Below, piece after piece: positions 2,344 through 60,881 of a DNA stretch of 64,000 bases (positions within the stretch are counted from its first letter, which is position 1; each line of letters opens with the position of its first letter). This stretch comes from Terriglobia bacterium (GTDB taxonomy: Bacteria; Acidobacteriota; Terriglobia; Bryobacterales; Bryobacteraceae): contig JAIQFS010000011.1 of assembly GCA_020073145.1 (NCBI GenBank), positions 62,001-126,000 on the forward strand, in the 5' to 3' direction. The notes under the pieces were generated by a model. That model saw only the letters and a list, made by a program, of their open reading frames with translations, was not told where the DNA came from and did no database searches. The translations under genes and the position numbers were made by a program.

Positions 2344-5300
2344 TTGGCGGAAAGATCGAAGCCGGACGAAGCGCCGAAAGAAGCGAGGCGGGTCAAGGCC
2401 AAGCCGAACTCGTCTCCCGTGCGCCTCCCCGTTCGCAAAAGCGTGCGCGCCGCCAACCACCCGAAACGAAACCAGACGTTCCCGATTGTCGGCGTGGGCG
2501 CTTCGGCGGGAGGGCTGGAGGCGTTTACGGAATTGCTGCGGGCCCTGCCGGCGACCACCGGCATGGCCTTCGTGCTGATCCAGCATATGGATCCGACCCA
2601 TGAGAGCATGCTGCCGCAATTGCTGGCAAAGGCCACCAGCATGCCCGTGCTCCAGGTGCAAGACGGGCTGAAGGTGCGGCCGGATCATGTCTACGTCATT
2701 CCGCAAAATGCGAGTATGACCATCCAGGGAGGGATCCTGCACCTGGAGGCCCGCCATGCGGACAGCGCGGGCAAGATTCTCCCGATCGACGACTTCTTCC
2801 GGACGCTGGCCGAAGAGCGAAAGACGGCGGCCATCGGGGTGGTCCTGTCGGGGACGGCTTCGGACGGCACCCACGGTCTGACCGCGATCAAGGCGGAGGG
2901 CGGGATCACGTTCGCACAGGATGAGGAGTCGGCCCGGTTTCCGGACATGCCGCGGAATGCCGTGGCGGCCGGCAGCGTCGATTTCAGTCTGCCGCCGGCC
3001 GAGATCGCCGCGGAGCTGGCCCGCATGGGCCGCCACCCCTACATCCGGGCAGCGGAGGAGGCCGAATCCGAGGCTGCGGAAGAACCCGACGAAACGCTGC
3101 GCCGGATCTGCATTCTGCTGCGCACGGCGACCTCGGTGGACTTCCACCTCTACAAGTTGGGAACCGTCCGGCGGCGGGTGGCGCGGCGCATGGCGCTGCG
3201 CAAGGTGCATAGCCAGGAGAAGTACCTCCAGCTTCTGCGCGAGGACCAGGCCGAGGTGGATGCGCTGTATGAGGATATCTTTATCCATGTGACCGGGTTC
3301 TTCCGGGATCCCGAGGCGCTGCACGCGCTGCAGCACACGGTTCTGCCGAGGATTCTGGAGCACCACACGGGGAACCAGCCGGTTCGCGTGTGGGTGCCGG
3401 GGTGCTCCACCGGGGAGGAAGCGTACTCCATCGCCATGGTGCTGATGGAAAGCCTGGAGGCGCTGTCGGCGCGGATGAGGATTCAGATCTTCGGCACCGA
3501 CATTAGCCACGCGGCCATCGAGCACGCGCGCACGGGCATTTATGCGGACGCGGCGATGGCGGGCGTCTCGGAGGAACGGCGGCGCCGATTCTTCGCGCGC
3601 GTGAAGGAGGGCTACCAGATCGAGAAATTCGTGCGGGATCTGTGTATCTTCGCGCGACAGGACGTCACCAAGGATCCGCCGTTCTCGAAGCTGGATCTGA
3701 TCAGTTGCCAAAACCTGTTGATCTACCTGGGTCCGGTCTTGCAGAACCGGGTGGCGGAGACGTTTCATTACGCGCTACAGCCCCATGGCTGGCTGCTGCT
3801 GGGGAAATCGGAATCCATGCGCGCTCAGAGCCACCTGTTCACGGCGGACGAAAACAAGCTCCGGCTGTTCACGCGCAAGCCGGTGCCGGCGCGGCTGTAT
3901 GTGGGTCCGTCGATGATGGAGTTCGCCAAGCCACAGCCCACCACTTCCGCCGGCGAGCCCTCGCCGTCGGCCGACCTGCGGCGGGAAGCCGAGCGGCTCT
4001 TGCTGGAGCAATACGTGCCGGCGGCCCTGGTGGTGGATGCCGATCTGCAAATCGTCCACTTCCAGGGGAAGACCAGCCCGTACCTGGCCCCGGCGACGGG
4101 GCAGCCGAGCTTTCACCTCTTGCGCATGGTGCTGCCCGAGTTGGTGGGAGAGCTGCGCACGGCCATCCACGAGGCCAAAAAGAAGGGCGCCGCCGTGCGC
4201 CGGGAAGGGATCCGGCTGCAGCACAACGGCGGCGTGCGCACCGTGGATCTGTACGTGGCGCCGTTCAAAGGACGCGGCTCCAAGGAGTACGATTTTCTGG
4301 TGGTCTTCCAGGAAAAAGGGCCGGAGCAACCTGGAACGGCCGAACGGGGGCGCTTAGCCGGGAAGGGCCGGGAGCCTGGGCAGGTAGCGCGGTTAAAGCG
4401 TTCGCTGGAGGCGGCGTACCAACAGCTCCAAACCCTGACGGAGGAATACGAGGCCACCAGCGAAGAGATGCGAGCGGTCAACGAAGAGGTGATTTCGAGC
4501 AACGAGGAACTGCAAAGCACCAACGAGGAGTTGGAAACAGCCAAGGAGGAATTGCAGTCGTCGAATGAAGAGCTGATCACGCTCAACGATGAGCTGCAGA
4601 ACCGCAATGTCGAGCTCGGCCAACTGGCCAACGACATGAGCAACCTGCTGGTGGGAGTGGAAATTCCGATCGTCATCCTGGATAGCGAGTTGCGCATCCG
4701 GCGCTTCACGCCGTCCGCGGAGAAGGCGTTCAACCTGATCAGCGGCGATTTCGGTCGTGCCTTCACCAACCTGGCGATCCCGCTGGACGTCACCGACTGG
4801 AAGGAACTGGTGACGGGAGTGGTGGCGCACCGCCGGTTCGTGGAGCGGGACGTGCAGGACCACGAGGGTCACTGGTACAGCCTGCGCATGCGGCCGTATC
4901 AGGCCGGCGAGCACCGGGTGGAAGGCGTCCTGATGGCGCTGTTCGACATCGACACGGTCCGGCGTAGCGTGGACGCGGCTCGCGAAGCACGCGACTTCGC
5001 GGTGGCGATGGTGGAAACGGTGCGGGAACCGGTGGTGGTGCTGGACGGGGATCTGCGGGTCATCAAAGCGACGAATAGCTTCTACGAAACCTTCCGGACA
5101 TCGGCGGCAGAGACGGAGGCGCGCGGTTTCTTCGAGCTCGGCGGGGGCTGGTGGAACGTGACGGGGCTGCGGGAGCGTCTGCAGGACGTGCTGCGGAGCG
5201 ATGAGCGGCTGGAGGACTTCGAGGTGGCCGGGGAGTTTCCGCCCCTCGGCTACCGGTGCATGGTACTCAACGCGCGGCAGATCCGCCGGCAGTCCGGACG

Positions 5301-6771
5301 GCCGGCGTTGATTACTCTGTCCCTCGAGGATGTCACGGAACGCAAGCAGGCGGTGGAAACGCTGCAGCAACGCGACCGCGCGATCCAAGAGGCCAGCGTC
5401 CAAGGCATCGTATCGGCGGGGCCCGATGGCCGGATCGCGATGGTGAATCTCCGGGCGGCGGAAATGTTCGGCTACAACCGCGAGGAGTTGCTGGATCTGC
5501 CGGTGGAAGTGCTGCTGCCGGAGAGCCTGCGGGAGTCCCACGCCGCGCGGCGCGCCGGGTATCTGGCCAACCCCCAGACGCGGCCCATGGGGGCGGGGCT
5601 CGATCTGCGCGGGCGCCGCAAAGACGGGAGCGAGTTTCCCATCGCCATCCAACTGAGCCACATCGAGACCAGGGGCGGAACGCACGCCATCGACATCATC
5701 ACCGATCTGACGGAACGGAGGGAGGCCGAGACAGCGCTGCGACGCAGCGAGGAGCGGCTCATGCTGGCCCAGGAGGTGGCCGGCATCGGGGTTTGGGAGT
5801 GGGACGCCGGGTCGGGTGAGGTGCGTTATTCCCAGGAATGGGGTCCGTTGTACGGCCTTCCGCCGGGGGCACAGGTTTGCGTGGATGAGGAGTGGCTGGC
5901 GATGATTCATCCCGAAGATCGCGAACGCCTTCGGGACCTTCAGGAACGAACCCTGCAGACCGGCGAGCCCTACCAGGCAGAGTTCCGCGTGTTGTGGCCG
6001 GACGCCAGCTTGCACTGGCTGCTGGGGCGGGGCAGCGTCTTCTACGATGAGAGCGGAAATGTGCTGGGCATGCTGGGCGTGACCATGGAGATCACCAGCG
6101 GGAAACAGGCCGAAGAGGAGCGGCAAGCCCTGCTGTTGCGGCTGGCCACGGCTCAGGAAGAAGAGCGGCGGCGCATCTCCCTGGAGCTGCACGACGACCT
6201 GACCCAGCGGCTGGCCGGCCTGGCGATGGAGCTGGGCAGTCTGGCCACCGAATTCCCGGCCGCGTCCGAGCGCCTCAAGAAACGCCTGCGCAATCTGCAG
6301 AGCGGCGTGGTGCAGGCGTCGGAAACCGCCCGCCACGTGGCCTACGAGCTCCACCCCTCCGAGCTCGATGACCTGGGGCTGGCGGCGGCCCTTCGCGCGT
6401 ACTGCGAGGACTTTGGCCGTGATGGAATCACGGTCGAGGTTACCAGCCGCGACCTGCCCGACAAGCTGCCTCGCGAAATCGCCTCCTGTCTCTACCGCGT
6501 CACCCAAGAGAGCTTGCGCAATGTGGTGAAGCACGCCAAGACCGACCGGGCCTCGGTCACCGTAGAGCGGAAAGGAGACCGGATTCTGCTCCAGGTGCGG
6601 GATGCGGGCGTCGGCTTCCCGGTTCCGTCCCTGGGCGCAACCGGGGGGCTGGGCATTCTGAGCATGAGAGAACGCGTGAAGGCCGTCCATGGCCGATTCG
6701 CGATCCGGGCGAAGCCCGGAGAAGGCGCCGAGATTTCCGTGGAGATCCCCCTTCCCGGAGGCAATCCATGA
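2344..6771 (+). CDS. CheB-CheR-PAS hybrid sensor histidine kinase
   Basis: 1475 residues from a TTG start with GGGAGGGG 5-12 bases upstream. Domains in order: a CheB-type methylesterase (about 45-225, with Ser54 in GASAGG, His81 in QHMDP and Asp174 in TASDGTHG); a CheR-type methyltransferase (about 245-500, SAM motif VPGCSTGEEAYS); a PAS-like segment; a coiled coil of repeated 'NEEL' heptads (about 680-760); several PAS domains (about 765-1255); HisKA_3 with His1283 in LELHDDL; and a HATPase (about 1380-1470, N-box NVVKHA). It should sense a signal through PAS and pass phosphate to the regulator whose ATG overlaps its stop. No chemotaxis genes lie nearby, so the CheB/CheR parts probably serve signalling other than classical chemotaxis. 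Confidence 0.9.
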   Translation: MAERSKPDEAPKEARRVKAKPNSSPVRLPVRKSVRAANHPKRNQTFPIVGVGASAGGLEAFTELLRALPATTGMAFVLIQHMDPTHESMLPQLLAKATSMPVLQVQDGLKVRPDHVYVIPQNASMTIQGGILHLEARHADSAGKILPIDDFFRTLAEERKTAAIGVVLSGTASDGTHGLTAIKAEGGITFAQDEESARFPDMPRNAVAAGSVDFSLPPAEIAAELARMGRHPYIRAAEEAESEAAEEPDETLRRICILLRTATSVDFHLYKLGTVRRRVARRMALRKVHSQEKYLQLLREDQAEVDALYEDIFIHVTGFFRDPEALHALQHTVLPRILEHHTGNQPVRVWVPGCSTGEEAYSIAMVLMESLEALSARMRIQIFGTDISHAAIEHARTGIYADAAMAGVSEERRRRFFARVKEGYQIEKFVRDLCIFARQDVTKDPPFSKLDLISCQNLLIYLGPVLQNRVAETFHYALQPHGWLLLGKSESMRAQSHLFTADENKLRLFTRKPVPARLYVGPSMMEFAKPQPTTSAGEPSPSADLRREAERLLLEQYVPAALVVDADLQIVHFQGKTSPYLAPATGQPSFHLLRMVLPELVGELRTAIHEAKKKGAAVRREGIRLQHNGGVRTVDLYVAPFKGRGSKEYDFLVVFQEKGPEQPGTAERGRLAGKGREPGQVARLKRSLEAAYQQLQTLTEEYEATSEEMRAVNEEVISSNEELQSTNEELETAKEELQSSNEELITLNDELQNRNVELGQLANDMSNLLVGVEIPIVILDSELRIRRFTPSAEKAFNLISGDFGRAFTNLAIPLDVTDWKELVTGVVAHRRFVERDVQDHEGHWYSLRMRPYQAGEHRVEGVLMALFDIDTVRRSVDAAREARDFAVAMVETVREPVVVLDGDLRVIKATNSFYETFRTSAAETEARGFFELGGGWWNVTGLRERLQDVLRSDERLEDFEVAGEFPPLGYRCMVLNARQIRRQSGRPALITLSLEDVTERKQAVETLQQRDRAIQEASVQGIVSAGPDGRIAMVNLRAAEMFGYNREELLDLPVEVLLPESLRESHAARRAGYLANPQTRPMGAGLDLRGRRKDGSEFPIAIQLSHIETRGGTHAIDIITDLTERREAETALRRSEERLMLAQEVAGIGVWEWDAGSGEVRYSQEWGPLYGLPPGAQVCVDEEWLAMIHPEDRERLRDLQERTLQTGEPYQAEFRVLWPDASLHWLLGRGSVFYDESGNVLGMLGVTMEITSGKQAEEERQALLLRLATAQEEERRRISLELHDDLTQRLAGLAMELGSLATEFPAASERLKKRLRNLQSGVVQASETARHVAYELHPSELDDLGLAAALRAYCEDFGRDGITVEVTSRDLPDKLPREIASCLYRVTQESLRNVVKHAKTDRASVTVERKGDRILLQVRDAGVGFPVPSLGATGGLGILSMRERVKAVHGRFAIRAKPGEGAEISVEIPLPGGNP

Positions 6772-21343: not shown

Positions 21344-22525
21344 CTACACCAGCCCTAGCTTCTTTCCCACCTTCCGGAAGGCCTCCAGCGCGCGGTCGAG
21401 CTCGGCCTTGGTGTGCGTGGCGGTGACGATGGTGCGCACGCGCGCTTTGCCTTTGGCCACCGTCGGGAAGCCGATTCCCGTCGCCAGTACCCCTTCTTCG
21501 AACAGCGCCTGCGACAGCTCGTGCGCCAGCTTCGCTTCGCCCACGATCACCGGCGTGATGGGCGTCTCGCTCATTCCCGTGTTGAAACCGGCCGACGCCA
21601 GCCCCGCCTTGAAATATTTCGTGTTGTCCCACAGCGCCTGAATGCGCTCCGGCTCCTGCTCCAGCACGTCGAACGCCGCCAGGCAGGACGCCGCCACTGC
21701 CGGCGGGTGCGACGTCGAGAACAGGAACGGACGCGCGCGATGATACAAATACTCGATCAGGTCGCGGCTGCCACACACGTAGCCACCCAGCACGCCGACC
21801 GCTTTGGACAGCGTTCCCACCTGCACCTGCACCCGGCCGTGGACGCCAAAGTGATCGATGGTGCCCCGCCCGCAGCGGCCCAGCACGCCGGAGGCGTGTG
21901 CGTCATCCACCATCATGATGGCACCGTGCTTCTCGGCCGCTTCCACCAGGCCGGGCAGCGGACCGATGTCGCCGTCCATCGAGAATACGCCGTCGCTAAT
22001 CAGCAGCTTGCGCCCGGATACGCCGTCCAGCTCCGCCAGAATCTTCTCCGCCGCCGCTACATCTTTGTGTGGAAATACGTGGATCTTGGCGCGCGAAAGC
22101 CGGCAGCCGTCGATGATGCTGGCGTGGTTCAGTTCGTCCGAGATGATGTGATCTTCCGGCCCGAGGATGGCCGACACCGTTCCCGCGTTGGCCGCGAAAC
22201 CGGATTGAAATACCACGCAGGCTTCCACGTTCTTGAACCGGGCGATGCGCTCTTCCAATTCCAGATGCAGGCTCATGGTGCCTGAAATGGTGCGCACCGC
22301 GCCCGAGCCTACGCCGAATTTTCGCGTGGCTTCGAGGGCGGCCTCGCGCAGCTTGGGATGGGTGGTTAGCCCAAGATAGTTGTTGGAAGCAAGGTTGATG
22401 ACGTCTTTGCCGTCAAATCGCGATTCCGCGGCGCTTTCCGATTGCAGAACGCGCAGCCGCTGATAGGTGCCTTCCTGACGCCACTGGTTGAGTTGTTCCG
22501 TGAGATACGAAAGAGGATGGGCCAC
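21344..22525 (-). CDS. kbl: 2-amino-3-ketobutyrate CoA ligase (glycine C-acetyltransferase), AOS family
   Basis: 393 residues, the length of Kbl. A PLP enzyme that, with threonine dehydrogenase, turns threonine into glycine and acetyl-CoA. Visible residues: PLP Lys241 in VGTLSKAVG, His134 in ELNHAS, Asp208 and His210 in VDDAHASG. Other AOS marks are LASNNYLGL, GSGAVRTISGT and VARTIVTATHTK near the end. BioF or another AOS member is possible, but GSGAVRTI and no bio genes favour Kbl. No tdh is next to it; the partner upstream in the same unit is a flavin reductase (19-base gap). A second AOS-family gene, at 57913, is the serine-palmitoyltransferase type. Confidence 0.85.
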   Translation of the reverse strand: MAHPLSYLTEQLNQWRQEGTYQRLRVLQSESAAESRFDGKDVINLASNNYLGLTTHPKLREAALEATRKFGVGSGAVRTISGTMSLHLELEERIARFKNVEACVVFQSGFAANAGTVSAILGPEDHIISDELNHASIIDGCRLSRAKIHVFPHKDVAAAEKILAELDGVSGRKLLISDGVFSMDGDIGPLPGLVEAAEKHGAIMMVDDAHASGVLGRCGRGTIDHFGVHGRVQVQVGTLSKAVGVLGGYVCGSRDLIEYLYHRARPFLFSTSHPPAVAASCLAAFDVLEQEPERIQALWDNTKYFKAGLASAGFNTGMSETPITPVIVGEAKLAHELSQALFEEGVLATGIGFPTVAKGKARVRTIVTATHTKAELDRALEAFRKVGKKLGLV

Positions 22526-49912: not shown

Positions 49913-54127
<4,215 letters not shown>

Positions 54128-54140
54128 CCGCTGCCCGTTG

Positions 54141-54185
54141 AACCGCCGGTGGTGCCTGGTGCCCCAGCCGGCGGTTCTTCGTTTG
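54141..54185 (+). terminator. rho-independent-like terminator of the rplA-rpoC operon
   Basis: A 9-bp perfect stem AACCGCCGG (54141-54149) / CCGGCGGTT (54168-54176) with an 18-base loop is followed by CTTCGTTTG, a short interrupted T tract. It lies 13 bases after the rpoC stop. Confidence 0.65.
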
Positions 54186-54319
54186 ACCTCCCTGGGCGTG
54201 CATCCAACCGTTAACTCCCGACATCATACCCTTAGCTGTTCTATGCCCGCGGTGCTTTGGCAATCGGCGGTCCGCCGTGAGATATTGAAGGAAGACTACT
54301 CGCCTGTCGAAGAGGTTAT

Positions 54320-54976
54320 TTGAGAAGCCTTTTGGTGTTTCTAGCCCTAGCCTGTGTTGCGTTCACTGACGCGGCGCACACTTCCCAGTTGGCCGTGATT
54401 GTTCTGAACACGTCAAATTGGGGCGGTGGACACCTGCCTTCCGACTGGCAAATCAAGGTGAACCACGGGAAACCGGAAGTCTTCGTGTGCCATGAAGACA
54501 ACAGCTCCTGCCTGCTCTTGAAGAGCGCCAAATCGTCGTTTGCTCTGGAACATGAGGTGGAGGTCAATCCTTACGCAACTCGGTTTCTCACCTGGCGTTG
54601 GAAGGTCACCCAGCTACCCGCCGGCGGGGATTTCCGGCATGCGGGCACCGATGACCAGGCCGCCCAAGTCCTGGTGGCCTTCTCGGACCGCCACGTGTTG
54701 ACGTATATCTGGGATACCACAGCCCCCAAAGGGACTGCGCAACTGGCCAGCTCCATTCCCCTGGTTCACATCTTTGCCGTGGTCTGCGAATCCGGCGCCG
54801 CGGATGCGAATCGCTGGCTCTCGGAGACTCGCGACGTCGCCACCGACTACGAGCGGGCCTATGGCAAAACCGCGCCCCAGGTCAAGGGGCTGCGCCTCCA
54901 GATCAATTCGCAGCACACCGGTACCGCCGCCGAAAGCTACTTCGGGGAAGTGGCATTTCGCGCCACCGCCCAGTGA
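54320..54976 (+). CDS. exported DUF3047 family protein
   Basis: 218 residues from a TTG with GAAGAGG in front. Signal peptide (SLLVFLALACVAFTDAAH). The mature domain has LPSDWQIKVNHGKPEVFV, the FLTWRWKVTQLPAGGDFR core, DDQAAQVLVAFSDRHVLTYIWDTTAPKGT and VKGLRLQINSQHTGTAAESYFGEVAF, all features of DUF3047. These proteins form a beta-jelly-roll-like domain of unknown function in the periplasm. Its stop shares one base with the ATG of the next gene (TGATG), so it belongs to the lipid-type operon that follows. Confidence 0.8.
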   Translation: MRSLLVFLALACVAFTDAAHTSQLAVIVLNTSNWGGGHLPSDWQIKVNHGKPEVFVCHEDNSSCLLLKSAKSSFALEHEVEVNPYATRFLTWRWKVTQLPAGGDFRHAGTDDQAAQVLVAFSDRHVLTYIWDTTAPKGTAQLASSIPLVHIFAVVCESGAADANRWLSETRDVATDYERAYGKTAPQVKGLRLQINSQHTGTAAESYFGEVAFRATAQ

Positions 54977-55938
54977 TGACCCTGGTCACGGGTGCCACTG
55001 GATTTATTGGGAGTCATCTGGCCGAAGCCCTACTGGCCCGGGGGGAGAGGGTGCGGGCCTTCGTCCGCCGCTCCAGTTCCACCCGCTATCTGCCTGCCGT
55101 CGAACTTTCCTACGGTGATCTGGTCGGCGGTGCCGGCCTCCCGGAAGCGCTCGCCGGCGTCCGCATGGTATTTCACGTGGCCGGCGTCACCAAAGCCCTG
55201 CGCGCCCAGGATTATCAGACTGGCAACGTCCGGGCCACGGAGACCCTGGCGCGCGCGGTGGCGGGGCAGGGCATCCGGCTCGTGCACGTCAGCTCCCTCG
55301 CAGCCATGGGCCCGACTCCTGCGGCGGCGCCCCTGACCGAAGAGGCGCCGCCTCGCCCGTTGACCCGCTACGGAAAGTCGAAGCTCGAAGCCGAGCGCGT
55401 GGTGCGCGCATTGGCGCCCGAAGCCGTAATCGTCCGTCCGCCAGTTGTCTATGGACCGCGTGATTCCGGAGTCTTCCAGGTATTGAAGCCGATCAGCCGC
55501 GGGTGGTCTCTGGAGATCGCTGGTGGCGAACGCTGGTTCAGTGCCATCTACGTGAAGGACCTGGTGGAGGGGCTCATCGCCGCTGCGGCCAGTTCCCGGG
55601 CTGCCGGCAGGACTTATTTTCTGGCCCACCCCAAGCCGGTTTCCTGGAGCGAGTTGACGGCTGCCGCGTCCCGCATCATGCGCACCCATCTGCGGGTCCT
55701 CCGGATCCCCGTGCCCCTGGCGAAAACGGTGGGATTCGGTGCCGAGGTGTGGGCCCAGATTTCACGCCGGCCCGGCATCCTCTCGCGCGAAAAGATCGCG
55801 GAGGCCCAATGTCCGGCCTGGACCTGCGATTCGCGGCGGGCTGCCGCCGAGTTCGACTTCCAAGCGCGTACCTCCCTCGATGATGGGTTAGCCCAAACCC
55901 TGGCCTGGTATAAGGAGGCCGGTTGGCTTCGGTATTGA
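54976..55938 (+). CDS. NAD(P)-dependent epimerase/reductase (extended SDR), candidate CerR ceramide-pathway reductase
   Basis: 320 residues. Rossmann start MTLVTGATGFIGSHLAEALLARG (GxxGxxG), FHVAGVTKA, the catalytic YGKSK (Tyr-x3-Lys), and VRPPVVYGPRD. The family includes HpnA-like and NDP-sugar enzymes. What points to a ceramide-pathway role is context: it sits two genes upstream of a GNAT acyltransferase and three upstream of a serine-palmitoyltransferase-type enzyme, on one transcript. In Caulobacter the 3-keto reductase step is done by an epimerase-like protein (CerR) coded near Spt. Sequence alone does not show the substrate; a sugar epimerase is the alternative. It overlaps the next gene by 16 bases. 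Confidence 0.7.
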   Translation: MTLVTGATGFIGSHLAEALLARGERVRAFVRRSSSTRYLPAVELSYGDLVGGAGLPEALAGVRMVFHVAGVTKALRAQDYQTGNVRATETLARAVAGQGIRLVHVSSLAAMGPTPAAAPLTEEAPPRPLTRYGKSKLEAERVVRALAPEAVIVRPPVVYGPRDSGVFQVLKPISRGWSLEIAGGERWFSAIYVKDLVEGLIAAAASSRAAGRTYFLAHPKPVSWSELTAAASRIMRTHLRVLRIPVPLAKTVGFGAEVWAQISRRPGILSREKIAEAQCPAWTCDSRRAAAEFDFQARTSLDDGLAQTLAWYKEAGWLRY

Positions 55939-56783
55939 CCCCTGAGACCCGTTTCTGGCCGGTGGACAAGGTTCTCCTGGCGTATTTCGCGTTCGCCCTC
56001 GTGCTGATTCTCGGCTGGTGGACGACGGTGCCTGACGCCGCTGGCCTGCTCACCGCTCACGTGCTGGGAGCCGGGCTCCTGGTGTACCAGGTCAAACGCC
56101 CCAATCCCACCACTCGCGTCTTCCACCATTGGTATCCCTTGCTGTACGTGGCCGCCTGCTACAAGGAAATGGCCCTGTTCATTCCGGCCGTCCGTCATTG
56201 GGAGGCGGATCAGTGGCTCGCGAACCTGGACGTCGCGATCTGGAAGGCCCATCCTACGGTCTGGCTGGAGCGGATTCAAACGCCGGCGTTCACGGAATTC
56301 TTGCAAGTGGTCTATACCTTATTTGTGCCGATGGTGCTGCTTCCCGCGATTCTCCTGTGGAAAAGGAAGGGTCTGAAGGAGTTCCAATATTTCGCTTTCT
56401 TAATCGCCATAGGCTACCTGGTCTCCTACGTGGGGTACCTGGTCGTGCCGGCTCGCGGGCCCCGTTTCCTGCTCGCTCATCTGCAGCATGTGCCGTTACG
56501 GGGCTTGTGGCTCTTTCAGGGCATGCAGGGCGCTCTGGACCGGCTCGAATCGGCGCATTATGACTGCTTTCCCAGCGGTCATACGGAACTCACCATCCTT
56601 GCGTGGTGGAGCACCCGCCAGTTCGGAAATCGATGGTTCTGGCCTTCTTTTGCCTACACTCTGAGCATCATTTTTGCTACAGTTTATCTTCGATACCACT
56701 ACACGGTTGACGTGATGGCGGGGGTGCTTGTGGCAGCCATTCTTCTTTTAGCCACTCCCGCTTTATATAGAAAGCTAAAATAA
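55923..56783 (+). CDS. PAP2_3/Aur1-like membrane enzyme, candidate (phospho)ceramide headgroup transferase or phosphatase
   Basis: 286 residues from TTG 55923 with AAGGAGG just upstream, overlapping the end of the preceding gene. Six membrane spans. The C-terminal PAP2 motifs are present: VVPARGPRFLL, FPSGHTELTILAWW and YLRYHYTVDVMAGVLVA (His, His, Asp triad). A long N-terminal half matches the PAP2_3 type that includes yeast inositol-phosphoceramide synthase Aur1 rather than simple phosphatases. In this operon it may add or remove a phosphate-containing head group on ceramide. The reaction is inference; a polyprenyl-phosphate phosphatase is the alternative. Confidence 0.72.
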   Translation: MASVLTPETRFWPVDKVLLAYFAFALVLILGWWTTVPDAAGLLTAHVLGAGLLVYQVKRPNPTTRVFHHWYPLLYVAACYKEMALFIPAVRHWEADQWLANLDVAIWKAHPTVWLERIQTPAFTEFLQVVYTLFVPMVLLPAILLWKRKGLKEFQYFAFLIAIGYLVSYVGYLVVPARGPRFLLAHLQHVPLRGLWLFQGMQGALDRLESAHYDCFPSGHTELTILAWWSTRQFGNRWFWPSFAYTLSIIFATVYLRYHYTVDVMAGVLVAAILLLATPALYRKLK

Positions 56784-56794
56784 GAGGGACTTGG

Positions 56795-57907
56795 TTGGGA
56801 GGAATCGAAGTCGTTGCGACGGACAAACGCGCACTGAATGAGTTCGTGGAGCTGCCGTACCAACTCTACCGGAACGACTCATTTTGGGTGCCGCCCTTGC
56901 GTATCGCGGTCAAGGAGTTGCTCGACCGCCGGAAACACCCATTCTACGCGGACGCCGAAGCCGAATTCTTTGTGGCGCGGCGGGGGGGCCGGGTGGTGGG
57001 GCGGATCGCCGCCATCATCGACCGGAGCCACAACCGCTTCCAGGAGGAGAACGCTGGGTTCTTTGGCTTTTTTGAGTGTATCGACGATGCCGGGGTCGCG
57101 GAAGCTCTGCTGACTCGCGCCCGGCAGTGGGTATTCGATCGGGGAGCCCGGTTTCTGCGCGGCCCGGTTAGCCCCTCCACCAACTATGAGTGCGGGATGC
57201 TGATCGAGGGTTTTGATTCCAGCCCCATGGTCATGACCACGTACAACCCGCCATACTATCCCGCCCTGATGGATCAAGTGGGGTTGCGCAAGGCCAAAGA
57301 CCTGCTCGCCTACCTGAGCAATTCCGCCAAAATCCCCCTGGAGAAGATCGAACGCGCCGCCGCGCGAGTGTACAAGAAGACCGGGGTCCGCGTGCGCTCC
57401 ATCAACCTGAAGGATTTTAGGGGGGACGTGGAGCGGGTTTGGAACGTCTATCGTGCGGCGTGGAGCCGCAATTGGGGCTTCGTGCCCATGTCCAAGGAAG
57501 AATTTCTTCTGATGGGCAAGGAAATGAAGCAGATTCTCAAGCCGGACCTGGTGTTGATCGGGGAAGTGGGGGACCGCATGGTGGGTTTCGCGCTGGCGTT
57601 ACCCGACGTTAACCAGGCTCTCAAACCCGCAGGTGGATCCCTGTTTCCCACAGGACTGCTCAAAATCCTGTATCATCAGCGTTTGATCAAGAGTGTCAGA
57701 GTCCTGGCGCTGGGGGTCGTGGAGGAACACCGGGCGTCTGGGCTGGCGGCGGCTTTTTATGCGACACTAGTTCGCAATGCCCGGAAACTCGGTTTTGGCG
57801 ACTGCGAAATGTCCTGGATCCTGGAGGACAACGTGTTGATGAATCGCTCCCTGGAGGTGATGGGGGCCAAGCGGTACAAAACCTACCGAATTTACGAATG
57901 GAGCTGA
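56795..57907 (+). CDS. GNAT-fold acyltransferase, candidate bacterial ceramide synthase (bCerS)
   Basis: 370 residues from TTG 56795 with GAGGGA upstream (another TTG lies at 56791 in another frame). The N-terminal part reads FVELPYQLYRNDSFWVPPLRIAVKELLDRRKHPFY, then VARRGGRVVGRIAAIIDRSHN and GFFECIDDAGVAEALLTRAR. A C-terminal part has KSVRVLALGVVEEHRASGLAAAFYATLVRNARKLGFGDCEMSWILEDN, a GNAT acyl-CoA-binding block. Proteins of this double-GNAT type are found next to serine-palmitoyltransferase genes, and the Caulobacter ceramide synthase is of this kind. Five bases before the Spt-type gene. The substrate is inferred from neighbours. Confidence 0.65.
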   Translation: MGGIEVVATDKRALNEFVELPYQLYRNDSFWVPPLRIAVKELLDRRKHPFYADAEAEFFVARRGGRVVGRIAAIIDRSHNRFQEENAGFFGFFECIDDAGVAEALLTRARQWVFDRGARFLRGPVSPSTNYECGMLIEGFDSSPMVMTTYNPPYYPALMDQVGLRKAKDLLAYLSNSAKIPLEKIERAAARVYKKTGVRVRSINLKDFRGDVERVWNVYRAAWSRNWGFVPMSKEEFLLMGKEMKQILKPDLVLIGEVGDRMVGFALALPDVNQALKPAGGSLFPTGLLKILYHQRLIKSVRVLALGVVEEHRASGLAAAFYATLVRNARKLGFGDCEMSWILEDNVLMNRSLEVMGAKRYKTYRIYEWS

Positions 57908-57912
57908 GGACC

Positions 57913-59151
57913 ATGCGTGTACCGAGTGCCGAAATCGCCGGCAAGAAGAAAGGCAGCGGGTCGAACGATGTCTTCGAGAAGTGCCGCACCTTTACTCGTC
58001 CGGGCGATCTGCAGTCCGCCGGGTTGTACATGTACTTCGAGGTCTTCGGGGATCGCGACGGGTGCGAGCCGGGTGAGGTGCGGCTGGGTGGACGCCGCGT
58101 CTTGATGTTCGGTTCCAACGACTACCTCGACCTGATTACCCATCCCCAAGTGAAAGAAGCCGCCGCTCAGGCCATCCGCAAGTACGGCAGCGGGTGCAGC
58201 GGCTCCCGCCTGCTGAACGGAACCCTGGACCTGCACGTCAAGCTCGAAAGCGAGCTGGCTGCCTTTGTGCACAAACAGGCCGCCATCATCTTTGGCACCG
58301 GTTTCCAGGCCAATTACGCAACCCTTTCGGCTCTCACCGAAAAGGGCGACGTGATGATTTGCGATCACAACCTGCACGCCAGCCTGGTGGAAGGCGCGTT
58401 ACGGTCGGCTGCGCGCACGGTCCGTTTCCGTCACAACGACATGGAGCACCTGGAGCGGTGCCTCGAGAATTGCCCTCCGGAAGAGAAGATCCTCGTGGTG
58501 AGCGAGGGAGTCTTCAGCATGGAAGGCGACATTGCCGACTTGCGCGGCATTCTGAAGCTGGCCAAGCCCTATGGCGCGCGGGTGTATGTGGATGAGGCCC
58601 ACGGCATCGGAGTGCTCGGCCCCACGGGCGCCGGCGCCGCCGAGCATCTGGGCGTGCTGGACGATATCGATATCGTGATGGGGACCTTCAGCAAGTCGCT
58701 GGCCTCGGTGGGCGGATTTATCGCGGGCGAGAAGGCCGTCATCGATTACCTGAAGCACACCGCGCGGCCCTTTGTTTTCTCCGCCAGTCTCCCAGCCGCC
58801 TCGGTGGCGGCGGTCGCCACGGCCCTGAAGATCATGAAGAAGGAGCCGGAACGGCAACGCCGCGTCCTGCGGATCGCCGGCCTGCTGCGCGAGGAACTGC
58901 GGAACCGCGGGTTCTCGGTGCTTCCCGGCGAGACGGCCATCGTTCCGGTGGTGATCCGCGAAGAGCTGGATCTGTGCCGCTTGTGCAAGAGCTTGCTGGA
59001 ACAGGGCATCTACATCAACCCCGTGCTCCGGCCGGCGGCCGCACAGAATCTGCTGCGAATCTCCTGTACCGCCGCCCATACCGAGAAACACGTAGACCGG
59101 CTGGTGACGACCCTGGAAAAGGTGGCGCGCGCGCTGGACATCGAGCGCTAG
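57913..59151 (+). CDS. spt: serine palmitoyltransferase-type PLP enzyme (AOS family)
   Basis: 412 residues. ATG 57913 has TGAGGA just in front; the in-frame ATG at 57898 is less likely. Condenses serine with a fatty acyl thioester to 3-ketosphinganine. From the longer start the key residues are His160 (NLHAS), Asp232 and His235 (VDEAHGIG), Lys266 (GTFSKSLASVGGF) and Arg378 (NPVLRPA). Their spacing (72, 3, 31) equals that recalled for the Sphingomonas enzyme (His159, Asp231, His234, Lys265). The Kbl-type enzyme at 21344 differs (Ser-rich GTLSKAVG, D-x-H spacing). BioF-like or other oxoamine synthases remain possible. It is the keystone of the operon. Confidence 0.78.
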   Translation: MRVPSAEIAGKKKGSGSNDVFEKCRTFTRPGDLQSAGLYMYFEVFGDRDGCEPGEVRLGGRRVLMFGSNDYLDLITHPQVKEAAAQAIRKYGSGCSGSRLLNGTLDLHVKLESELAAFVHKQAAIIFGTGFQANYATLSALTEKGDVMICDHNLHASLVEGALRSAARTVRFRHNDMEHLERCLENCPPEEKILVVSEGVFSMEGDIADLRGILKLAKPYGARVYVDEAHGIGVLGPTGAGAAEHLGVLDDIDIVMGTFSKSLASVGGFIAGEKAVIDYLKHTARPFVFSASLPAASVAAVATALKIMKKEPERQRRVLRIAGLLREELRNRGFSVLPGETAIVPVVIREELDLCRLCKSLLEQGIYINPVLRPAAAQNLLRISCTAAHTEKHVDRLVTTLEKVARALDIER

Positions 59152-59168
59152 GTTCGGAGAAGCGGGTC

Positions 59169-60881
59169 GTGCCCTCGGTCAAGAAGAAATCCCGACGGCG
59201 GACCGAGGTTCCCAGCGCCCCTCTCGCCCCCACCCCGACTCCCAGCCCGGGATGGTGGCAAACTCAGGCGGCTCCCTTTTTAGCAGCCCGGGCCTTCCTG
59301 CTGGCGATCAGTCTGATCGCCGTCGGTGCGTTTCGCATTGTGGCCGCTTATCCTGAGACCGGGATCACGTTCGATGAGCCGGGCCACATGGCCTGCGGCT
59401 TGCAATTCCTGGCGGAACACGTCTATCGCTACGAGTCGCAGCACCCCCCGCTGGCGCGCGTGATGACCGCGCTCGGGCCGTACCTCGACGGTGCCCGTCC
59501 CATGGGCGTGGCTGACCAGAACCAGGAAGGCGTGGCCGTGATGTACCGCGATTCCCACGTGCTCCGAACCCTGATTCTGATGCGGCTGGGAGTGCTGCCG
59601 TTCTTCTTTCTGGGATGTCTGGTGGTGTACTTCTGGTCCGCCCGCTTTTTCGGAAAGCCGGTGGCGGTGATGGCAACCGGTCTGTTTACTCTGTTGCCGC
59701 CGGTGCTGGCTCATGCTGGTCTGGCCACCACCGACATGGCGCTGGCGAGCTGCCTGGGTTTGGCGTTCCTGGCGCTCCTCCGCTGGGCGGAACATCCGGC
59801 ACTGCCCCAGAGCCTTGGGTTGGGTTTCGCCACCGCGTTGATGGTGCTTTCCAAATTCACCGCGCTGGCTTTCTTCCCGGCCGCCGTCCTCCTGGCGCTC
59901 CTCGCGTATCTGGCCACCAGGAAGCCGGGTCTGGGAGAGGTGATGGCTCTGGCAAAAGCGCGCGCTCTCCCGTTTGCCCTCGCCGTCGCCACCGGCGCGG
60001 TGCTGATTTGGGCCGGTTATCTGTTCTCCTTCGGCAAGGTTCCCGGGTGGAATGTCTCCCTCCCCGCTCCGGAGGTCTTCGACGGCGTGCGGGTTGCTCT
60101 CCGTCACAACGACCGCGGCCACCTGGCCTACCTGCTCGGCAACATCAGCCAAGACGGATGGTGGTATTACTTTCCCGTGGTTCTGGCCGTGAAGACGCCC
60201 CTAGCGTTTCTTCTGCTCCTGGCCGGGGGGATCGGGATCGGTTGGAAACAGCGCCACAACACCGCATACTGGCTTCCCTGGGCCCTGTCTCTGGGGATTC
60301 TGATTCCCGCCATGATGGGCCATGTCAACATCGGCGTCCGCCACATCCTTCCCGTCTACATGGGCTTCTCCATTACGGCCGCCCTGGCTCTGGTCCAACT
60401 CTTCGCGGCGGCCCAGTCCCGGATCTGGACGGGTATCGTGGCTGGAGTTCTGTTGGTTTGGCTGGTGTTTTCCGGTGCTCGCAGTCATCCCGATTACGTC
60501 GCTTACTTTAACGAATTCGGCGGCAGCCACCCCGAAAATATCCTGGTGGATTCGGATCTGGATTGGGGGCAGGACACGGTGCGGCTGGCCCGTTGGCTGA
60601 AAGCCAGGTCCATCACCGACGTTTCCTTCGTCACCATGAACCTGACCGCGAGCCGCCTGGCGGCATGGCCGGGTCTGCCGGCCGTACGCCCCATCCTGGC
60701 GACCTCTCCCGCCGAGGGCTGGACCGCGGTGAGCCCCACCATTCTGATCTTCAACGAATACGGCCTCGATCACAAATACCCCAATTTGAAGCCCTGGTTC
60801 GAATACATCCATCCGGTAGACAGAGTCGGGTCGCTCTTTTTGTACTACATCAAACCGGGCACATTACCGCCTAGGTCCTGA
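59169..60881 (+). CDS. GT-C (PMT/ArnT-like, GT39/83) glycosyltransferase, integral membrane
   Basis: 570 residues. GTG 59169 preceded by GGAGAAGCGGG, 17 bases after spt. A basic cytoplasmic N-terminus (KKKSRRR) leads into about eleven spans. The first periplasmic loop has GITFDEPGHMACGLQFL, with the Asp-Glu pair usual in PMT/ArnT transferases, and YESQHPPLARVM. These enzymes use polyprenyl-phosphate sugars on the outer face of the inner membrane. As last gene of the operon it may glycosylate the sphingolipid or a linked surface component. That role is inference; no motif tells the acceptor. A 55-base gap precedes the next gene. Confidence 0.82.
   Translation: MPSVKKKSRRRTEVPSAPLAPTPTPSPGWWQTQAAPFLAARAFLLAISLIAVGAFRIVAAYPETGITFDEPGHMACGLQFLAEHVYRYESQHPPLARVMTALGPYLDGARPMGVADQNQEGVAVMYRDSHVLRTLILMRLGVLPFFFLGCLVVYFWSARFFGKPVAVMATGLFTLLPPVLAHAGLATTDMALASCLGLAFLALLRWAEHPALPQSLGLGFATALMVLSKFTALAFFPAAVLLALLAYLATRKPGLGEVMALAKARALPFALAVATGAVLIWAGYLFSFGKVPGWNVSLPAPEVFDGVRVALRHNDRGHLAYLLGNISQDGWWYYFPVVLAVKTPLAFLLLLAGGIGIGWKQRHNTAYWLPWALSLGILIPAMMGHVNIGVRHILPVYMGFSITAALALVQLFAAAQSRIWTGIVAGVLLVWLVFSGARSHPDYVAYFNEFGGSHPENILVDSDLDWGQDTVRLARWLKARSITDVSFVTMNLTASRLAAWPGLPAVRPILATSPAEGWTAVSPTILIFNEYGLDHKYPNLKPWFEYIHPVDRVGSLFLYYIKPGTLPPRS

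Follow-up and report, generated by a model that had tools for sequence, protein, structure and literature searches.

A compact candidate sphingolipid operon with an AUR1-like gene in an Acidobacteriota genome

Sphingolipids are a class of lipids better known from animals and fungi. Among bacteria, the closest described systems include those of Caulobacter and the Bacteroidota. In Caulobacter, the genes that concern us are needed for ceramide formation (PMC11324152). A bacterial headgroup enzyme, BT_1522 of Bacteroides, was discovered by way of the yeast enzyme AUR1 (PMC9246714, PMC8791184). A Black Sea survey reports Spt-like genes in 38 phyla (PMC11334938). Soil lipidomics found ceramides to correlate with an Acidobacteriota sequence and raised the question of whether sphingolipids are made in that phylum (PMC9969633). 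Here, we describe a gene cluster in a 64,000-nucleotide stretch, referred to as the window, from the genome of a Terriglobia bacterium (phylum Acidobacteriota, family Bryobacteraceae; contig JAIQFS010000011.1, positions 62,001 to 126,000). The cluster is very probably a compact sphingolipid operon, with a probability that we put at roughly 0.83, in which a ceramide core is combined with an AUR1-like candidate headgroup enzyme.

The core consists of three proteins encoded on the forward strand: a short-chain dehydrogenase/reductase (SDR; 54973-55938; GTG start, or ATG at 54976; Pfam Epimerase, E = 5.5e-33), a GNAT-type N-acyltransferase (56795-57907; TTG start, 370 residues; Acetyltransf_1, E = 1.1e-6, 29.4 bits with a cut-off of 20.7) and an alpha-oxoamine synthase (AOS; 57898-59151; ATG start, 417 residues; Aminotran_1_2, E = 1.9e-61). 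All were compared with three Caulobacter genomes other than that of the type strain. The GNAT protein has a sole match in each genome (35-36% identity over residues 11-368, 212-224 bits), and the best AOS match in each (260-269 bits) lies on the same contig ~7 kb away, as described for CC_1154 and CC_1162 (PMC11324152, PMC9386255). The best SDR match, at 97-118 bits against 56-70 for the runner-up, adjoins this spt-locus AOS in all three genomes, and a reverse search with one of the Caulobacter SDRs returns the window SDR at 93 bits and the next protein at 41, making the pair reciprocal best hits. We equated this locus with the published one by the layout of CC_1152-CC_1168 (PMC11324152) and by an orthologue list naming CC_1154 and yghO (PMC9386255). 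Because the best GNAT, AOS and SDR matches converge on one Caulobacter locus in all three genomes, the core corresponds to the bacterial ceramide set. Homology thereby supports the predicted assignment of the GNAT protein to the bCerS (CerS) family of N-acyltransferases and of the SDR as a CerR-like enzyme that would reduce the 3-keto group, as an earlier note on this DNA had suggested for both.

The same convergence, together with the published need for the Caulobacter counterparts in ceramide formation (PMC11324152), speaks against a reading in which this is no sphingolipid locus and the three enzymes instead produce a secondary metabolite such as an acylated amino ketone. That idea takes its appeal from Streptomyces NBC_01001, where the three genes are followed by one for a condensation domain, but we regard it as very improbable.

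An alignment of 16 GNAT proteins from the window's family, Actinomycetota, Bacteroidota and Pseudomonadota, including those of the three Caulobacter genomes, has 30 invariant columns. For the SDR, the best NCBIfam model is HpnA, a hopanoid sugar epimerase; this identity was rejected, as the score is 130 bits against a cut-off of 368. The HpnA model is matched by all 16 aligned SDR proteins, those of Caulobacter included.

The AOS had been proposed to resemble serine palmitoyltransferase (SPT) rather than BioF or Kbl, and two trees place it accordingly. In the first (55 rows), it falls inside a 43-row SPT clade with support of 100/98. Its members include the two solved SPTs and the AOS found at the spt locus in each of the three Caulobacter genomes, along with enzymes from Roseomonas, Sphingomonas, the E. 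coli yghO cluster, Bacteroides, Parabacteroides, Rubrobacter, Streptomyces and Aureispira. Outside it stand E. coli BioF and Kbl, rhizobial HemA, the genome's own two paralogues, the other Caulobacter AOS, the Thermus enzyme and two AOS of the phylum (loci L073 and L074), with long branches that leave the order among these rows little meaning. The second tree (54 rows), to which nine further AOS of relatives were added, gives the same split with a 35-row clade (100/99). The AOS of the window's family form a branch of their own within the SPT clade. Two outcomes that the earlier note had named as refuting its reading, an AOS grouping with BioF or Kbl and a GNAT protein unrelated to bCerS, are thus not what the sequences show.

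Model and structure searches rank the AOS similarly. The Bacteroidota SPT is the top NCBIfam model at 459 bits, with BioF second at 376. The best solved structure is the SPT of Sphingobacterium (353 bits), against 263 bits for a BioF/Kbl enzyme of Thermus, 260 for the SPT of S. wittichii and 241 for a cysteate acyltransferase. The active-site residues H160, D232, H235, K266, R378 and R387 are all in place, K266 being the lysine that binds pyridoxal phosphate.

A second AOS of 393 residues is encoded in the window on the reverse strand (21344-22525). The trees group it with the Thermus BioF/Kbl enzyme and AOS of relatives, and by this placement it is probably a BioF or Kbl. Caulobacter sp. 602-1 (L108) likewise has a second AOS, which belongs to the SPT clade and lies on a contig other than that of the spt locus.

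It is conceivable that the core chemistry is the same and the amino acid is different, the AOS taking alanine or cysteate to yield 1-deoxyceramides or sulfonolipids. The SPT clade is defined by sequence alone, the AOS scores below the cut-off of the SPT equivalog model, and 1-deoxyceramides and sulfono-1-deoxyceramides correlate with bacteria carrying Spt-like genes (PMC11334938). However, the solved cysteate acyltransferase reaches 241 bits where the SPT reaches 353. A sulfonate or 1-deoxy product would also lack the 1-hydroxyl to which a phospho-headgroup is attached, and such products therefore fit poorly with an AUR1-like gene in the cluster. We consider alanine or cysteate improbable, and a serine-using SPT remains the preferred reading of the AOS.

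The genes around the core recur with it. DUF3047, SDR, PAP2, GNAT and AOS form a run of five same-strand genes (54320-59151), in which neighbours overlap or lie at most 11 bases apart. Five further genomes from the family show the same five-gene order (L062, L063, L064, L065 and L068), with the AOS of L062 cut by a contig end; the clusters of two more genomes (G003 and G021) are also cut by contig ends, and G021 has no PAP2 gene between SDR and GNAT. Beyond the family, AOS, GNAT and SDR genes occur near each other, in varied orders, both in further families of this phylum and in Actinomycetota, Bacteroidota and Pseudomonadota, and they are directly adjacent in Rubrobacter, Streptomyces, Nonomuraea and Aureispira. 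These observations come from 28 loci chosen by hand for an AOS or GNAT match (L051-L058) or a GNAT match (L071-L090). At 10 of 20 loci from the phylum, an AOS of the SPT clade lies within ~10 kb of the GNAT gene (L075, L078, L082-L085 and L087-L090, with L078 and L082 standing in the trees as L034 and L038), and at two the AOS is outside that clade (L073 and L074). Since the family repeats the five-gene order and the three core genes also keep company in other phyla, the arrangement is not a matter of chance.

Of 41 near genomes, 12 carry a relative of the GNAT protein, with the genome of the window counted among them; in a phylum sample of 396 genomes, 110 do. AOS genes with at least 67% identity occur in 11 of the 41 and PAP2 genes with at least 49% identity also in 11, all of them in genomes with GNAT, one PAP2 match (G003) being a fragment of 26 residues where a contig ends. 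By Fisher's exact test, each association has a value of 4e-9, which is overstated because the genomes are related. PAP2 orthologues are thus carried by 11 of the 12 GNAT-bearing relatives and by none of the 29 GNAT-free ones, and because they track GNAT in this way, we regard PAP2 as the fourth member of the cluster. Outside the family, a PAP2 gene lies near the AOS, GNAT and SDR genes at 5 of the 28 loci (L053, L083, L084, L087 and L089), in differing orders. These are in other families of the phylum and in Nonomuraea, the clearest being L083 with AOS, GNAT, SDR and PAP2 in a row. Another locus, L086, has GNAT and PAP2 without an AOS.

The PAP2 protein (55923-56783, forward strand; TTG start, 286 residues; PAP2_3, E = 2.3e-17) is a putative membrane enzyme. 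When a 13-member profile was compared with solved structures, yeast AUR1 came first with a weak match (E = 4.3e-5) spanning 223 profile positions, followed by LpxE (4e-4) over 75 positions. H220, H259 and D263 are invariant in all 13 members and align with the catalytic FPSxH and HYxxD motifs of AUR1, which are common to PAP2 phosphatases too. Nine of the 13 members match the model for phosphoinositol dihydroceramide synthase (NF052609) at E ≤ 0.01, the best at 5.7e-7, and five match the LpxE model. The likeness to AUR1 claimed in the earlier note is thus weakly but consistently seen, and we regard the protein as an AUR1-like candidate transferase that may move a phospho-headgroup.

PAP2 enzymes are largely phosphatases. 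The protein might accordingly be a lipid phosphatase acting, for example, on ceramide phosphate or undecaprenyl diphosphate, which would leave free ceramide as the final product or for modification by enzymes encoded elsewhere. The second rank of LpxE behind AUR1 and the five members that match its model lend this some weight, but AUR1 leads over a stretch three times longer, the inositol-ceramide synthase model matches nine members, and the cluster contains no ceramide kinase to supply a phosphatase with substrate. We therefore hold a phosphatase to be somewhat unlikely and a headgroup transferase to be the better reading.

Several observations weigh against the proposal of a sphingolipid operon with its own headgroup enzyme. 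The AOS misses the cut-off of the Bacteroidota SPT equivalog (NF047600; 459 versus 640 bits). It does not belong to that equivalog family but to a branch of its own inside the SPT clade, and its amino acid could therefore be serine, alanine or cysteate. Similarly, the window PAP2 protein scores 20.6 bits against NF052609, whose cut-off is 480, and is hence termed AUR1-like and not classed with the inositol enzymes. The genome does have a MIPS gene for inositol synthase, but so do 35 of the 41 relatives, with or without the cluster; MIPS was rejected as a marker of the cluster on this count, and inositol is therefore not singled out as the headgroup. Single-sequence structure prediction gave models too poor for use (mean predicted local distance difference test score of 45.6 for PAP2 and 38.2 for DUF3047). 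In the family, the cluster of two genomes (G001 and G002) contains no SDR and that of a third (G014) neither SDR nor DUF3047, the SDR having been sought in the cluster only. A further genome (G019, locus L067) keeps GNAT and PAP2 orthologues with a weak SDR match and no DUF3047, and its only AOS match is outside the SPT clade, which could mean that SPT was lost, that sphingoid bases are salvaged from outside or that the assembly has a gap. At 8 of the 20 phylum loci, no AOS is present in the stretch fetched, some of which end early. Finally, the closest GNAT relatives in the phylum sample (50-51% identity; L071 and L072, genomes G299 and G379) have no AOS within ~10 kb, and their neighbours read as BON-domain-like and chloride-channel-like proteins. 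GNAT by itself is therefore no proof of ceramide, and the GNAT family may have a second role.

Of the two remaining genes, one is a companion of the core and the other appears to be a mere neighbour. DUF3047 (54320-54976, forward strand; TTG start, 218 residues; PF11249, E = 5.7e-30) is in the cluster at 7 of 9 family loci and at none of the 28 loci outside the family, and is a companion gene of the window's family. Its protein has a signal-peptide-like start, as read by eye, and is perhaps exported or periplasmic. The second gene encodes a GT-C glycosyltransferase-like membrane protein (~59169-60881, forward strand; GTG start, with the mechanical open reading frame beginning at 58974; PMT_2, E = 4.5e-7), for which a part in the pathway had been proposed, so that the operon would make a glycosylated (phospho)ceramide. 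It lies on the same strand after a 17-base gap, and in Roseomonas a gene annotated as glycosyltransferase family 39 follows the SPT gene. The Roseomonas protein, however, has no similarity to the window GT-C, and the best homologues (51% and 48%) and others listed from the 41 genomes are on contigs other than that of the cluster or far from it. Another copy (39%) occurs elsewhere in the window's genome, consistent with a scattered multi-copy family. No GT-C gene follows the AOS in the nine family loci with downstream sequence, whose reading frames were read by eye; the one apparent case (L066, 19 bits) was false, the gene there encoding a carbamoyltransferase. On this synteny we rejected GT-C as a pathway gene; a glycosylated product is improbable, and the gene is probably only a neighbour.

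Neither an acyl carrier protein (ACP) nor an acyl-AMP ligase is encoded in the cluster, which leaves no room for them between its genes (acpR and aasR were looked for in the cluster only). The earlier note had this absence right. Its statement that ACP and acyl-ACP synthetase accompany Spt elsewhere holds for alpha, beta and gamma proteobacteria, which represent one of two SPT subgroups (PMC9386255). In some delta proteobacteria, homologues of acpR and aasR are found at other places in the genome (PMC9386255), and the genome of the window may therefore encode an ACP at some other place. Because the adjacent AOS, GNAT and SDR genes of Rubrobacter, Streptomyces and Aureispira also come without an annotated ACP, in gene tables that are incomplete, its absence is no objection to a ceramide pathway.

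A pathway can be proposed from these assignments. In the first step, which homology supports well, the AOS would form 3-ketosphinganine by condensing an amino acid, for which serine is the most likely candidate, with an acyl thioester that is probably acyl-CoA. The GNAT enzyme would then add the N-acyl chain and the SDR reduce the 3-keto group to give (dihydro)ceramide. As a pair these steps are well supported, and either may come first; CerR is reported to be periplasmic in Caulobacter, and the localization data there favor acylation first (PMC11087976). In a fourth step, the PAP2 enzyme may transfer a phospho-headgroup from a glycerophospholipid to ceramide, with phosphoinositol as the first candidate and phosphoethanolamine or phosphoglycerol as alternatives. 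As a guess, DUF3047 may help in lipid handling or export. The core is well supported by homology and context, whereas we infer the headgroup step, as well as substrate, product and the headgroup itself, and glycosylation is not supported.

The cluster lies directly downstream of rpoC, which ends at 54127. All six frames from DUF3047 to GT-C are open at the positions first reported, and Pfam agrees with the family labels given then. The junctions, described earlier as overlaps or gaps of 5-17 bases, are nearly so: in order, they are an overlap of 4 (or 1), an overlap of 16, a gap of 11, an overlap of 10 and a gap of 17. An HlyD-like gene begins 55 bases after the GT-C gene. After rpoC, an inverted repeat (GAACCGCCGG...CCGGCGGTTC then TTCG; 54140-54177, forward strand) was read by eye and is not in the output of the consensus scan, in which loops were limited to 8 bases. 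It is possibly the rpoC terminator, which would separate the cluster from rpoC. A weak promoter candidate upstream of DUF3047 (TTGGCA-18-GATATT; 54257-54286, forward strand) has 9 of 12 consensus matches, and the scan of the region gave two such sites with 1.3 expected, which is the level of chance. In L064 the cluster is not beside rpoC and is preceded by genes read as acetyl-CoA carboxylase subunits; because its position in relatives is not always next to rpoC, we regard the cluster as a unit of its own. Elsewhere in the window, a forward-strand gene (2344-6771) encodes a 1475-residue fusion in which a CheB methylesterase and a CheR methyltransferase are joined to a histidine kinase and several PAS domains.

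Three of the loci examined outside the family are of separate interest. An ACP-type sphingolipid cluster of AOS, ACP, acyl-AMP ligase, SDR and GNAT genes, together with non-ribosomal peptide synthetase and P450 genes, lies on the IncP plasmid pDCB2 of Diaphorobacter sp. JS3051 (L055, 1-17135), which is typed as conjugative and is a possible transfer route for the pathway. On a Rubrobacter radiotolerans plasmid (L052, 6914-12506), the AOS, GNAT and SDR genes are followed by a lipoteichoic acid (LTA) synthase family gene, a candidate for a phosphoglycerol headgroup enzyme. Next to the glc operon of E. coli PN43 (L058, 2322-10101), yghO lies with AOS, ACP, SDR and acyl-AMP ligase genes and with two genes that are annotated as lptF and lptG; this is the gammaproteobacterial form of the ceramide cluster.

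The bacterium thus probably makes a sphingolipid, and a complete, compact candidate operon in the Acidobacteriota makes the question of sphingolipids in this phylum directly testable. A literature search combining Acidobacteria or Acidobacteriota with sphingolipid or ceramide gave no account of this operon among the matches listed, in the excerpts available, and survey tables may mention the phylum. More tentatively, and at somewhat less than even odds, soil Acidobacteriota may have, in one ACP-free operon, every step that leads from acyl-CoA and serine to a headgroup-bearing phosphosphingolipid, the AUR1-like transferase being a constant fourth gene. Rearranged forms of this four-gene set would then mark a widespread class of sphingolipid makers outside the Bacteroidota and Proteobacteria and would explain why ceramides track Acidobacteriota in soil.

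Compared with known systems, the locus shares homologous AOS, SDR and GNAT proteins with Caulobacter crescentus (spt CC_1162, cerR CC_1164 and cerS/bCerS CC_1154). Clusters of the Caulobacter type have a dedicated ACP and acyl-ACP synthetase, with cerS in another operon (PMC11324152, PMC9386255), whereas in the window all genes are packed together and the cluster has no ACP. The placement of acpR and aasR beside spt is a trait of the ACP-dependent (Rhodobacteria) sphingolipid cluster and is absent here. With the Bacteroidota, the locus is linked by the nearest solved SPT, that of Sphingobacterium (353 bits, versus 260 for S. wittichii). The inositol phosphoceramide operon BT_1522-1526 of that phylum contains the AUR1-like headgroup enzyme BT_1522 (PMC9246714, PMC8791184). 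The window PAP2 has a likeness to it, though at its score against NF052609 it is only a distant relative of the Bacteroidota inositol enzyme. Two Bacteroidales records have no annotated GNAT or PAP2 gene within 8 kb of SPT, whereas in the window these genes are adjacent. Rubrobacter, Streptomyces, Nonomuraea and Aureispira have the same three core proteins side by side as the window, but the neighbors differ, with the LTA-synthase gene in Rubrobacter, the condensation domain in Streptomyces, and a PAP2 match only in Nonomuraea of the four. The profile match to AUR1, the yeast inositol phosphorylceramide synthase, covers most of the window PAP2 with both motifs aligned, weak as it is. The chemistry is known, and what is new is the compact arrangement, free of an ACP of its own and with a built-in AUR1-like fourth gene.

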